This document shows positions 8,904 to 17,509 of a DNA stretch of 17,509 nt, piece after piece. The stretch spans positions 1-17,509 of the forward strand of contig PIVW01000064.1 of NCBI GenBank assembly GCA_003353825.1. Direction: 5' to 3'. A model generated the notes under the pieces. That model was not told the origin of the DNA. It saw nothing but the letters and a program-made list of their open reading frames with translations, and did not search any database. The translations under genes were made by a program, and so were the position numbers. The stretch is from Chloroflexota bacterium (lineage in GTDB: Bacteria; Chloroflexota; Anaerolineae; J102). How positions within the stretch are numbered: position 1 is the stretch's first letter; each line of letters starts with the position of its first letter.

Positions 8904-8955
8904 TCAGAAGATCAGTGTTTCAGTGTCCAGTGGGTCAGTGATCAGTGGTGGATGG
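8904..8955. repeat. Conserved flank downstream of VR1 with phased CAGTG units
   Basis: On the plus strand CAGTG starts at 8913, 8921, 8928, 8936 and 8943, a 7-8 bp rhythm. The same block follows VR2 (from 13846) and VR3 (from 17399) almost unchanged, but is absent next to the TR. It spans the stop codon and last residues (SPSTTDH) of the variable gene. It may be part of the target-recognition region, since DGR homing is known to need DNA 3' of the VR. Confidence 0.75.
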
Positions 8956-11814
8956 GGAGAACACCACCCGAAAACCGACGCCGAGGTAACGGTCGTGGGG
9001 AGGCATGTAGCCACGACAGGCGCAGCGCACGCGCCCGGCGAGGTTGCCGAACGAGCCGCCACGCAACACACGGCCATAATCAGCGGAGGCTTCTAAATTC
9101 TCACGTCCATCATCGGGGTTGTAGGGATATTCGAACTCAGACTCCGACCAATCCTTACCCCATAGACTACGAGTCCACTCCCAAACATTGCCACTCATAT
9201 CCTCAACGCCGTATGGACTCATGCCAGCGGGGAAGCAGCCAACAGCGCTGGTGGTTCCGATAGCAGTTGCACCATAGTTGGTTTTGTCGGGATCGGCGTC
9301 CTCACCCCAGGGATAGGCGCGACCATCGCCGCCTCGAGCCGCTTTCTCCCACTGCGCCTCACTGGGCAGGGTAAATCGCCAGCCTTTGTGCAGTCGTTTC
9401 GCTAAAGGTTTCGGCGTCTGGCTCCATTCTGTCAGAGCATCTGTCAACCAATCGCAATAGGCCAGGGCTTCGTACCAGTTCACATACCGTACTGGACGGC
9501 TGACCGCATCCCGCAAGGCGTCGTCATTCCCAGGCTCAAAGCCGGTCGCATCCACAAAAGCCTGGAATTGCGCCACTGTCACCGGGTAGCGGGCGATGTA
9601 GAAGGTGGGTAGATCAACCTGGTGTTGGGGCCTCTCCTCATCTGTAATCGTATCGCTTCCCATCGAGAAGGCGCCTGCCGGGATCTCGACGAAGTCGAGT
9701 AAGCACTCGTCAGGTAAATACCAGGCATCTGTCCGAAAGCGAGGGTCCCCCAGGTGAGCGAGAACATCGCCGGCAGAAGCGCGTTCCACGGCTGTGAGCG
9801 CGCCCTCCTGCAAAAGCTTAGCCAGGCGTTGCTGCACTCGCTGCAACATATCTTGGCCCAATTCACTGTCTTTCACGCGGTTGAGCCCCATCTCCTTCAG
9901 CACTTCGCCTGCCAACCACACCTTGCGCCAGGCCAGCTCTTCCTGAGGCAAACGACGTGGGCACAGTTCACCTACCAGGGTCAGAGGCTTGGCCGTATCG
10001 CCCTGAGCCACCAACCTGCCCACTGCCAGCAAAATCACCTCTCTCCAAAAGGCGCCTTCCTTTAGCAATTGCGTAGCCTGGCGGCCAAAATCCCCTTGCG
10101 TGGCCAGATAGCAGCCCGCCAGATATTCCTGAAAAGTGCGATGGGGGAAGGTGTACACCGCGGGCGCTCGCTCGAGCAGCAATCCCGCTCGCAGTTTCAC
10201 AACCTCGACGATCTCTCTGGCCCAGTCCAGGCTTTCTTGTGGGTGTAGCCTCGCCAATGCCTTCTGCAATTGCCATTCGCTGATATCAGCCAGGGCTTCG
10301 CCGTCATCACTGTCAGCACTGCGATGGGCCTCATAGGCAAGTTCCCAAAGCACTTTTTTCAGATCTACCTCAGTTCGCCCGGCATCCAACAACAATTGGC
10401 GAATGCGTGGCGATTCTTCGTCGCCGGCGAAACGGATCTCGTCCCAACGCCATAGTAAGATCTCCACCGTATCTTCGTAGAGCGTGGCCCGGGCGTCGGG
10501 CAGACGACCTTTATGGGTGTGCACCAGGGCCATCACTGTTAGCAACAGGGGGTTGCCGGCCAGCCTATGCAAGTCTTTGCGTTGGATGGCAGCTTTCAAG
10601 CGCTCTGTCAGCGTTAGCCGTTGTTCAGCACTAACCACACCAATACGGTGCAATTCGGTGTACCAGGCTGCGATGAAGTTGTTGATTTTAGAATCGTCAA
10701 ACTCGGCCAACTCGAAGGCCGGAAGCCCCTGCAATTGCCAGTCAGGATCCTGATAAGAGAGCGTACGGCAAGTGACGACCATCCGGCATTTTTTATAGCG
10801 GACAGTAAATGCTGCAACAGCATCCCGTACAAAAGTACGCTGCTCCCGAGTGGGGATTTCGTCTAAGCCATCGAATAGAATAATCGCCTGACCCTGATCA
10901 AGAGCATCCTTTAATAGCTTGACCATGAATTCCAGGTTTTGCGCGTGCAATTGCCTTTCGATAAAACGCCAAACATGGTGGGGCGTGGCCTTGTCATTAC
11001 CGCCGATGGATTTGGCGTAGTCCCTGAGCGTAACCGAAATGGGCAATAACTCTGCTTCCGTTTCCGCCCAGCCGGGAAGCTTGTTCGACCATCCTTGCTG
11101 GGGATGCAACCCTTGCATGGCCAGACAGAATCCGAGGAAGTTGAGGAAAGTTGATTTCCCGGAGCCGGGATCGCCAAGAAGCACCAAATGTCGGCTAAAC
11201 TGTGTGGCTGAAAGAGCGGGCAAAGGCGTGAAGTCTTCCTCTCGCTCCCCCTTTAGACCAACCTCAATCCGATCGATGATATGCTGGCGCTTACGCGTAA
11301 ATTTCACCAGCTCTCCACCGCCTTGCCCCTGTGCAGACCGCATCCACTTTTCCCCTACCTGTGTTACAGTGTTTAGATCAATATACACCTGATCAAGGGC
11401 CAATCGTTTGCCGCCCCGCTGCGGATCACTTTCCCCCACATCCACGCCTCGCAGAGGTAAGTTGCGGCAAGCAGAAGCATAAACCTGGCGGTAAATCGAG
11501 AGTCTATCCGCTTTGTCTTGGGGCGGATCGCCGACGTATGTGTCGCCGATGGTTATGCCTTGAGCGCTGTCCACCTTGACGTTGTATTTGCCTCTCTGCT
11601 CGATATGGCGGTCACTCATATCCACATCGCCACCCACATCCCTGCCAATGTTGCGTTCGCCATCGATAACGAGTGCATCCTCATCCCCGGCAGAACCGCT
11701 CTCCGCTGCTGCCTGGACACCGGCAATAGCAATTTTGTAGGTATCCTCATCAAGCAATCCGCTGTTGTAAGCCAGACGTAATTGCTGCAGACGTTTATCC
11801 AGTTCTCTACTCAC
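8935..11814 (-). CDS. DGR variable protein 1: NACHT NTPase with C-terminal FGE/C-type-lectin domain
   Basis: 959 residues, starting at GTG 11814 with AAAGGAG 8 nt upstream. The GTG overlaps the RT stop (GTGA), so translation is probably coupled. Residues 1-35 form a short helix (SRELDKRLQQLRLAY). Residues 50-95 are a beta-like NIGRDVGGDVDM...KYNVKVDSAQGITIGD segment of the kind seen before STAND NTPases. The NACHT core has Walker A GDPGSGKST (214-222), Walker B IILFDGLDEIP (311-321), VVTCRTLSYQ, NPLLLTVMALVH and YTFPHRTFQEYLAGCYLA. From about 710 runs an FGE-sulfatase-type domain (IPAGAFSMGSD, YPVTVAQFQAFV, LPSEAQWEKAARGGDGRAYPWG, MSGNVWEWTRSLWG). The last ~40 residues before SPSTTDH are VR1. 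Probably a cytosolic ligand sensor; true formylglycine-generating activity is unlikely. No N-terminal effector enzyme is visible. Confidence 0.93.
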   Translation of the reverse strand: MSRELDKRLQQLRLAYNSGLLDEDTYKIAIAGVQAAAESGSAGDEDALVIDGERNIGRDVGGDVDMSDRHIEQRGKYNVKVDSAQGITIGDTYVGDPPQDKADRLSIYRQVYASACRNLPLRGVDVGESDPQRGGKRLALDQVYIDLNTVTQVGEKWMRSAQGQGGGELVKFTRKRQHIIDRIEVGLKGEREEDFTPLPALSATQFSRHLVLLGDPGSGKSTFLNFLGFCLAMQGLHPQQGWSNKLPGWAETEAELLPISVTLRDYAKSIGGNDKATPHHVWRFIERQLHAQNLEFMVKLLKDALDQGQAIILFDGLDEIPTREQRTFVRDAVAAFTVRYKKCRMVVTCRTLSYQDPDWQLQGLPAFELAEFDDSKINNFIAAWYTELHRIGVVSAEQRLTLTERLKAAIQRKDLHRLAGNPLLLTVMALVHTHKGRLPDARATLYEDTVEILLWRWDEIRFAGDEESPRIRQLLLDAGRTEVDLKKVLWELAYEAHRSADSDDGEALADISEWQLQKALARLHPQESLDWAREIVEVVKLRAGLLLERAPAVYTFPHRTFQEYLAGCYLATQGDFGRQATQLLKEGAFWREVILLAVGRLVAQGDTAKPLTLVGELCPRRLPQEELAWRKVWLAGEVLKEMGLNRVKDSELGQDMLQRVQQRLAKLLQEGALTAVERASAGDVLAHLGDPRFRTDAWYLPDECLLDFVEIPAGAFSMGSDTITDEERPQHQVDLPTFYIARYPVTVAQFQAFVDATGFEPGNDDALRDAVSRPVRYVNWYEALAYCDWLTDALTEWSQTPKPLAKRLHKGWRFTLPSEAQWEKAARGGDGRAYPWGEDADPDKTNYGATAIGTTSAVGCFPAGMSPYGVEDMSGNVWEWTRSLWGKDWSESEFEYPYNPDDGRENLEASADYGRVLRGGSFGNLAGRVRCACRGYMPPHDRYLGVGFRVVFSPSTTDH
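8956..9074 (-). repeat. Variable repeat VR1
   Basis: It aligns to the TR (13050-13168) for 119 nt without a gap. All 19 substitutions fall at positions where the template coding strand has A (19 of 26 such positions changed); every other base is identical. Protein: [18 protein letters not shown] then CRGYMPPHDRYLGVGFRVVF, against N-rich residues in the TR. The 25-nt block at the 3' coding end (8956-8980) is unchanged and serves as the likely IMH. Confidence 0.95.
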
Positions 11815-17306: not shown

Positions 17307-17450
17307 GGATCTGGTTTAAGCGATTGGCCATTTCGCCCGACCTTCGCCCGGGCAACCAAAGGGGGCGCTGCGCCCCCTTTGGAAACCCCAGCCAGTGGTC
17401 AGAAGATCAGTGTTTCAGTGTCCAGTGGGTCAGTGATCAGTGGTGGATGG
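17307..17450. repeat. Extended conserved flank downstream of VR3
   Basis: Second copy of the 13755-13897 block. Its hairpin is perfect here: CCAAAGGGGGCGC-T-GCGCCCCCTTTGG (17356-17382). The five CAGTG units are kept. Its presence beside the third VR ties this flank to DGR targets. Confidence 0.88.
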
Positions 17451-17509
17451 GGAGAACACCACCCGAAAACCGACGAGGTTGAAACGGAGGTGGGGATGCA
17501 TGAGGTAAC
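17430..17509 (-). CDS. DGR variable protein 3, C-terminal end only
   Basis: The last 26 codons of another variable gene enter from the right edge: YLMHPHLRFNLVGFRVVF then SPSTTDH and stop at 17430-17432. The tail matches variable protein 1 (SPSTTDH) and the diversified residues differ from both other proteins. By analogy the missing part should contain an FGE/C-type-lectin domain, and perhaps NACHT, but that is not visible here. Confidence 0.85.
   Translation of the reverse strand, partial: YLMHPHLRFNLVGFRVVFSPSTTDH
17451..17509 (-). repeat. Variable repeat VR3, partial
   Basis: 59 nt visible, aligned without a gap to TR 13050-13108. Nine differences, all at template adenines (9 of 15 in the covered part). 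The 25-nt IMH block is identical to the TR. Confidence 0.92.

Follow-up and report, generated by a model that had tools for sequence, protein, structure and literature searches.

A Chloroflexota-like diversity-generating retroelement with one template, at least three target genes, two of them complete NACHT-FGE genes, and a putative scar of array growth

Organization of the locus

We analysed a stretch of 17,509 nucleotides from a Chloroflexota bacterium (contig PIVW01000064.1, assembly GCA_003353825.1), which is referred to as a whole as the window. It contains a diversity-generating retroelement (DGR), all features of which lie on the minus strand. A preliminary description had proposed that one template repeat (TR), one reverse transcriptase (RT) and one avd gene are accompanied by three genes on the same strand bearing a variable repeat (VR), two of them complete, and that these targets lie on both sides of the core with one of them overlapping the RT stop. 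Both proposals were borne out. Read along the minus strand, the parts follow one another as VR3 (truncated at the edge of the window), gene 2 with VR2, avd, TR, RT and gene 1 with VR1. The features are as follows.

8935..11814, minus: target gene 1, NACHT and C-terminal FGE-sulfatase domain (C-type-lectin fold); Pfam FGE E 1.1e-49, NACHT E 2.6e-6
8952..9074, minus: VR1, 3' end of gene 1; 20/28 TR adenines changed, 0 other sites
11811..12863, minus: DGR reverse transcriptase; PF00078 E 2.2e-12, phrog_1423 381 bits, 8ub7 E 6.6e-49
12870..13260, minus: TR with flanks, probably one structured RNA; strain conservation, folding against shuffles
13046..13168, minus: TR; best template for all three VRs in the adenine-bias scan
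13264..13602, minus: avd accessory gene; bAvd 65 bits (cut-off 40), DivGenRetAVD 87.2 bits (cut-off 80)
13877..17167, minus: target gene 2, NACHT and C-terminal FGE-sulfatase domain (C-type-lectin fold); FGE E 2.1e-43, NACHT E 1.5e-6
13894..14017, minus: VR2, 3' end of gene 2; 17/28 TR adenines changed, 2 other sites
17222..17289, minus: RT fragment matching RT positions 11952-12020, putative scar of a lost core; alignment score 77
17307..17453, minus: copy of the VR2 3' flank (13755-13900), behind VR3; 143/147 columns identical
17430..17509, minus: 3' end of a third target gene, truncated at the edge of the window; the open frame continues into a matching C-terminus and stop
17447..17509, minus: VR3, cut by the window end; 10/17 TR adenines changed, 0 other sites

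The open frames of genes 1 and 2 are complete. The GTG start codon of gene 1, at position 11814 and with AAGGAG upstream of it, lies in a 4-nt overlap (GTGA) with the RT stop. The RT is of the DGR type by its profile matches and by its best solved relative, 8ub7, which we take to be the BPP-1 enzyme; its best PHROG is phrog_1423, reverse transcriptase, and its motif IGNLTSQ is presumably the one typical of DGR RTs. The avd product exceeds the curated cut-offs of both Pfam and NCBIfam and was identified as Avd. Within 12870-13260, only 2 of 391 sites differ between the two strains compared below, and the RNA of this region, folded as a single sequence, outperforms every one of 100 shuffles (z -3.96), suggesting that the TR and its flanks probably form one structured RNA. 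A viral origin of the element was rejected, as only two IMG/VR loci match the RT, at 35%.

Adenine bias and strain comparison

Inside the TR, the three VRs together are changed at 47 of 73 adenine sites and at only 2 other sites, which is the pattern of an adenine-directed TR/VR pair. Over 13046-13171, a span whose last three positions fall outside the TR/VR homology, the other-site mismatches were 3/98 for VR1, 4/98 for VR2 and 0/46 for VR3, and the Fisher p values for adenine bias were 5e-14, 2e-10 and 1.5e-7, respectively. Adenine occurs in 17 of the 40 TR codons counted, and none of these can be converted to a stop; as computed from the TR codons, approximately 10^15.7 protein variants are allowed per VR.

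Evidence for activity comes from the comparison of two assemblies. The ortholog of the locus is an 8550-base contig (L029) of the nearest available genome, G001; it has the same size as contig L033 (JAAENL010000306.1) and is 96% identical over window positions 9175-17496. Between the strains VR1, VR2 and VR3 differ at 15/26, 20/28 and 10/17 adenine sites (45/71 in all) and at 5/86, 4/98 and 2/46 other sites (11/230 in all). In the TR, by contrast, 0/28 adenines and 1/98 other sites have changed (1/126 overall). The VRs have therefore diversified in nature, as judged from these two assemblies. When all six VRs were compared pairwise, two VRs that were both changed at a site carried the same base 61 times out of 167, close to one in three.

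The preliminary description had held that inactivating changes in RT or avd, together with a lack of VR heterogeneity, would speak against the system. No inactivation was found: both genes are open and under purifying selection, with 17 synonymous and 10 non-synonymous changes in the RT relative to its ortholog (dN/dS 0.16) and 4 synonymous and 0 non-synonymous changes in avd. Taken together with the VR differences, the locus appears to have been active recently.

Target proteins

The VRs of genes 1 and 2 lie at the C-terminus of a protein whose FGE domain has the C-type-lectin fold; for VR3 only the matching C-terminus can be seen. A NACHT domain is present in both complete targets, placing them among NACHT/STAND proteins. 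The N-terminus of gene 1 weakly resembles effector-associated domain 10 (EAD10; E 0.0016, below cut-off), and that of gene 2 gave no convincing domain match. A structure predicted for the last 330 residues of gene 2 from an alignment of 25 sequences had a mean pLDDT of 92, and its top fold matches were structures of CalU17, ToxD, EgtB and FGE, with query TM-scores of about 0.6. Of the 7996 candidates scored, 733 are related to gene 2 at E <= 0.001, with the ortholog first at 94% and the next one at 58%. Relative to the ortholog, dN/dS was 0.30 for gene 2 without its VR and 0.21 for gene 1 without its 3' part.

Related loci and host

TR-VR pairs were surveyed by adenine bias in 73 sources, comprising 71 related loci, L031 (a further contig of G001) and the window; the target counts are lower bounds, as many contigs are short. 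No VR was found in 24 sources, one in 42, two in five (L034, L038, L050, L078 and L092) and three in two, the window and its ortholog L033. Among the 38 loci that are 8 kb or longer, the corresponding numbers are 7, 26, 4 and 1. Two pairs were kept out of the count for the main TR, namely the third one of L050, whose TR is far from the RT and on the other strand, and the second one of L031, with 4 non-adenine mismatches. The VRs bracket the RT and TR in all five two-VR loci. A bracketed layout is thus usual among the multi-target loci of this sample, and three VRs are rare there. Among 42 VR-bearing frames from the group, short or cut frames being excluded, Pfam matches were to FGE in 41, NACHT in 27, TIR_2 in 6 and EAD1 in 2; one frame matches RVT_1, probably that of L057, where the chosen frame runs into the RT, and one matches Pkinase. 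The VR-bearing frame upstream of the RT in L031 (204-1955) resembles a protein kinase with an FGE domain behind it.

Five consecutive ACTG motifs stand at the same place behind each VR of the window (8913-8946, 13855-13888 and 17408-17441, minus strand). These ACTG-rich 3' flanks were considered as a homing signal, which was not upheld: in the 16 of 73 sources inspected, clusters were found behind all three window VRs and behind VR2 and VR3 of the ortholog, away from the VRs in L045 and L061, and in none of the remaining 12.

The window also carries pheS and pheT, which bear on its host. The best-segment identity of the window PheT is 46-54% to nine Chloroflexota-named genomes, 44% to a Ktedonobacterales genome, 37% to G001 and 34% to a Rhodobacteraceae-named genome. 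By name, 61 of the 71 related loci are Chloroflexota. The contigs of G001 that carry DGRs are recorded as Halieaceae. In 17 other genomes of the genus of G001, any match to the RT was found in only two, at no more than 37%, and window positions 1-8900 match G001 only at 65% near its own pheT and over a further 27 bases. By these comparisons the window is Chloroflexota-like, and the copy in G001 would be either misbinned or transferred. Three contigs of G001 (C305, C263 and C547; L029, L030 and L031) appear as three DGR cassettes, although the related loci are mostly Chloroflexota. They hold 8 matches to the TR, which were considered as one multi-target system; this was rejected, since the RTs on the three contigs are 97, 72 and 58% identical to that of the window and thus belong to three separate cassettes.

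Exchange between targets and proposed growth of the array

The relationship of gene 1 to its ortholog was measured in 50-column identity windows. Upstream of about 9200 gene 1 is 86-98% identical to the ortholog; between about 9200 and the VR its identity drops to 26-62% with the ortholog but is 84-92% with gene 2. The 3' part of gene 1 is thus a mosaic between strains, its C-terminal piece having been replaced either in the window's strain or in that of the ortholog, and targets exchange such pieces. As the swapped piece is only 84-92% identical to gene 2, the event would be old or the donor another target. The ortholog contig ends in VR1, and the VR1 3' flank was thus compared within the window only, where it is slightly nearer to the VR3 flank (2 mismatches in 63) than to the VR2 flank (3 in 61), a weak hint that gene 3 may have been the donor. 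The TR does not contain the exchanged piece, so copying from the TR by the DGR would not move it, and ordinary recombination is the likely cause.

Behind VR3, positions 17453-17307 are identical to the VR2 3' flank (13900-13755) in 143 of 147 columns (97%). The copy is followed by 17 bases of unknown origin and then by a fragment of the RT, in which 17289-17222 aligns to 12020-11952 with a score of 77; 1000 dinucleotide shuffles reached 31 at most, and 63 control pieces taken from the window no more than 27. The 48-base core of this fragment scores 76 with the window's own RT and at most 41 with the RTs of other loci, apart from a score of 77 with L029 and L033 that possibly comes from their own copy of the scar. 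The same scar is present in the ortholog. When the 73 sources (71 loci, L031 and the window) were searched for matches to their own RTs, four gave one: the window, its ortholog L033, L072 and L073. The match in L072 looks like a dispersed repeat and that in L073 is a palindrome, and neither was counted as a scar; a control with reversed RTs gave matches in 0 of 73. A comparable scar was therefore found in no other of the 73 sources besides the window and its ortholog.

The most plausible origin of this structure is the tandem duplication of a target-core-target unit, after which a stretch equal to 13754-12021 (approximately 1.7 kb, with avd, the TR and most of the RT) would have been deleted from one copy, leaving one template. 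If so, the scar is the remnant of a second avd-TR-RT core.

Other features of the window

A T-box leader (7697-7981, minus strand; Rfam RF00230, 101.8 bits, cut-off 93) lies upstream of pheS-pheT on the same strand. A transposase-like frame is present at 2493-3287 on the plus strand (DDE_Tnp_1 E 0.00075, below cut-off), and a short segment within it, at about 2650-2676, has a match outside the DGR in a G001 contig as well and is perhaps a dispersed repeat. An open-ended frame at 1-435 (minus strand) encodes a partial glucose-6-phosphate dehydrogenase C-terminal domain, and a frame of 625 aa at 240-2117 (plus strand) contains a threefold GYQRGGG repeat and has no Pfam match.

Relation to known systems

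The preliminary description had stated that most characterised DGRs have one or two targets. Most published DGRs do have a single VR, but several are also common: among 948 DGRs, 271 (28.6%) were reported as multi-VR, 216 of these with one TR (PMC6642488). The same paper lists one DGR with one TR and three C-terminal VRs, that of Leptolyngbya PCC 7376 (NC_019683.1), which resembles the present locus in having its VRs at the C-termini of three genes, two of them for sulfatase-modifying-factor proteins; it differs in its cyanobacterial host and in its third target, a phytochrome-type sensor. Cyanobacterial DGRs with several and remote targets have also been described (PMC7517822). In Treponema denticola ATCC35405, one TR and one RT serve seven FGE-type targets, and isolates of this species have one TR and two to seven such targets (PMC4891356). 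This TvpA-type DGR shares with the window the single TR and RT and the several FGE-type targets, but its targets are scattered over the genome, whereas here they flank the core, and NACHT is not mentioned in the available part of that paper.

The closest parallel may be found in the NACHT/STAND-lectin DGRs of multicellular bacteria, such as Thiohalocapsa PB-PSB1 and its relatives (PMC10907252). That paper describes loci with several targets, duplicated and degraded cores, unequal activity of the VRs within one locus, and STAND/NACHT-lectin targets as putative antigen sensors, and it lists filamentous Chloroflexi as hosts of related RTs. These DGRs and the window have in common a STAND NTPase whose C-terminal lectin-fold sensor undergoes adenine mutagenesis, more than one target per locus, and signs of duplication and of degraded cores; unlike them, the window has three targets in its locus and a deletion scar, and no transposon was seen at the locus. 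The DGR of Bordetella phage BPP-1 shares the RT, Avd, TR-to-VR adenine mutagenesis and a lectin-fold target, but has a single phage tail-fibre target, unlike the cellular NACHT proteins here, and DGRs have been linked to conflict systems (PMC7159879). No paper on this locus was found in a literature search by subject words rather than by accession. Multi-target and NACHT-lectin DGRs are thus already published, and of all the features described here the putative growth scar has the least precedent in the literature found.

Interpretation

The window very likely carries a cellular DGR of a Chloroflexota-like bacterium, with one core and at least three targets, of which the two complete ones encode NACHT-FGE receptor-like proteins, in an array that probably grew by duplication, deletion and exchange. 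By analogy with known DGRs, the RT together with Avd would copy the TR RNA, misreading its adenines, and the cDNA would replace the 3'-terminal VR in at least three target genes. Each VR would be rewritten separately from one template, so that one core could feed a small array of sensors. The targets would most likely sense invaders, probably phage, and the NACHT domain would then set off a response at the level of the cell. In the preliminary description one template was seen as feeding an array of receptors with combined diversity; one template for three genes is supported, as is, by the strain comparison, the activity of the system, while the idea that the three proteins act as one combined repertoire is one that we infer.

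Several points weigh against this interpretation. The body of the third gene is not visible, and the extension of the contig that had been suggested as a check stops at the same place, as the ortholog contig also ends inside VR3; yet in both contigs the VR3 stretch is open and runs in frame into a matching C-terminus and stop. The case for activity is built on two assemblies, and the ortholog contig comes from a Halieaceae-named bin, so that neither the host nor the strain relation is secure. Of the 11 non-adenine differences between strains, 4 are at the flanking positions 13169-13171 and the remaining 7 are inside the VRs. Orthologous VR pairs share the new base in 15 of 32 cases and other VR pairs in 46 of 135; since orthologs share it slightly more often, VR turnover may be incomplete. 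On the whole the VRs vary almost independently, and the slight excess among orthologs may come from shared history. Finally, no PADLOC model matches gene 1 or gene 2, and they are thus not recognized as curated antiphage NACHT proteins.

Alternatively, only one or two VRs might be live targets, the others being remnants that change by drift or by recombination between targets. Recombination does occur here, the 3' part of gene 1 being gene 2-like in the window and not in the ortholog, and VRs of unequal activity are known from single published loci (PMC10907252). We regard this as improbable, however, because the strain differences of each of the three VRs fall mainly on TR adenines, because the proportion of shared bases is unlike that expected from VR-to-VR copying, and because frame and stop are kept in all three. 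That the DGR was formerly active and is now dead in the strain of the window is more improbable still: the two non-adenine changes within VR2 would fit such a loss, but both RT and avd have open frames that are subject to purifying selection, hardly any change is seen in the TR with its flanks, and non-adenine changes inside the TR are absent from VR1 and VR3. Somewhat less improbable, but still unlikely, is that the targets are FGE-fold binders or enzymes for attachment, regulation or similar functions rather than immune-type sensors. The FGE fold is common to the enzymes EgtB, FGE and CalU17, most cellular DGR targets were read by Roux et al. as membrane-bound binders (PMC8144416), and in addition to the lack of a PADLOC match, the matches to the antiphage protein EruA are weak and partial (39.9 and 43.6 bits, far under the cut-off of 1000). 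Against this, NACHT is present in both complete targets and in 27 of 42 group members, with TIR_2 in 6 and EAD1 in 2. With regard to the scar, the flank copy and RT fragment beside VR3 may have come from two separate recombinations rather than from duplication and deletion of a whole core, an explanation that we consider possible, though doubtful. The 17 bases between the pieces and the absence of any trace of avd and TR are in its favour; the order and orientation of the pieces are, however, those expected after a single deletion in a target-core-target-core-target array, the RT fragment is closest to the window's own RT, and the ortholog carries the same scar.

Our interpretation of the locus as a multi-target cellular DGR can be extended to the way in which its repertoire may have grown: stepwise, by tandem duplication, deletion of the redundant core and C-terminal exchange among linked receptors, with each VR rewritten from the shared template. 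We hold this extended account with about even confidence. The array may continue beyond the window with further receptors. The locus represents a clear and apparently active case, from a Chloroflexota-like bacterium, in which a single DGR template serves several linked NACHT-lectin genes. Its ortholog is near enough to reveal which parts of the system vary and which are conserved, and the putative scar provides a concrete step for the origin of multi-target DGRs. If the target proteins do sense phage, they would represent the built-in diversification of a putative bacterial immune receptor.

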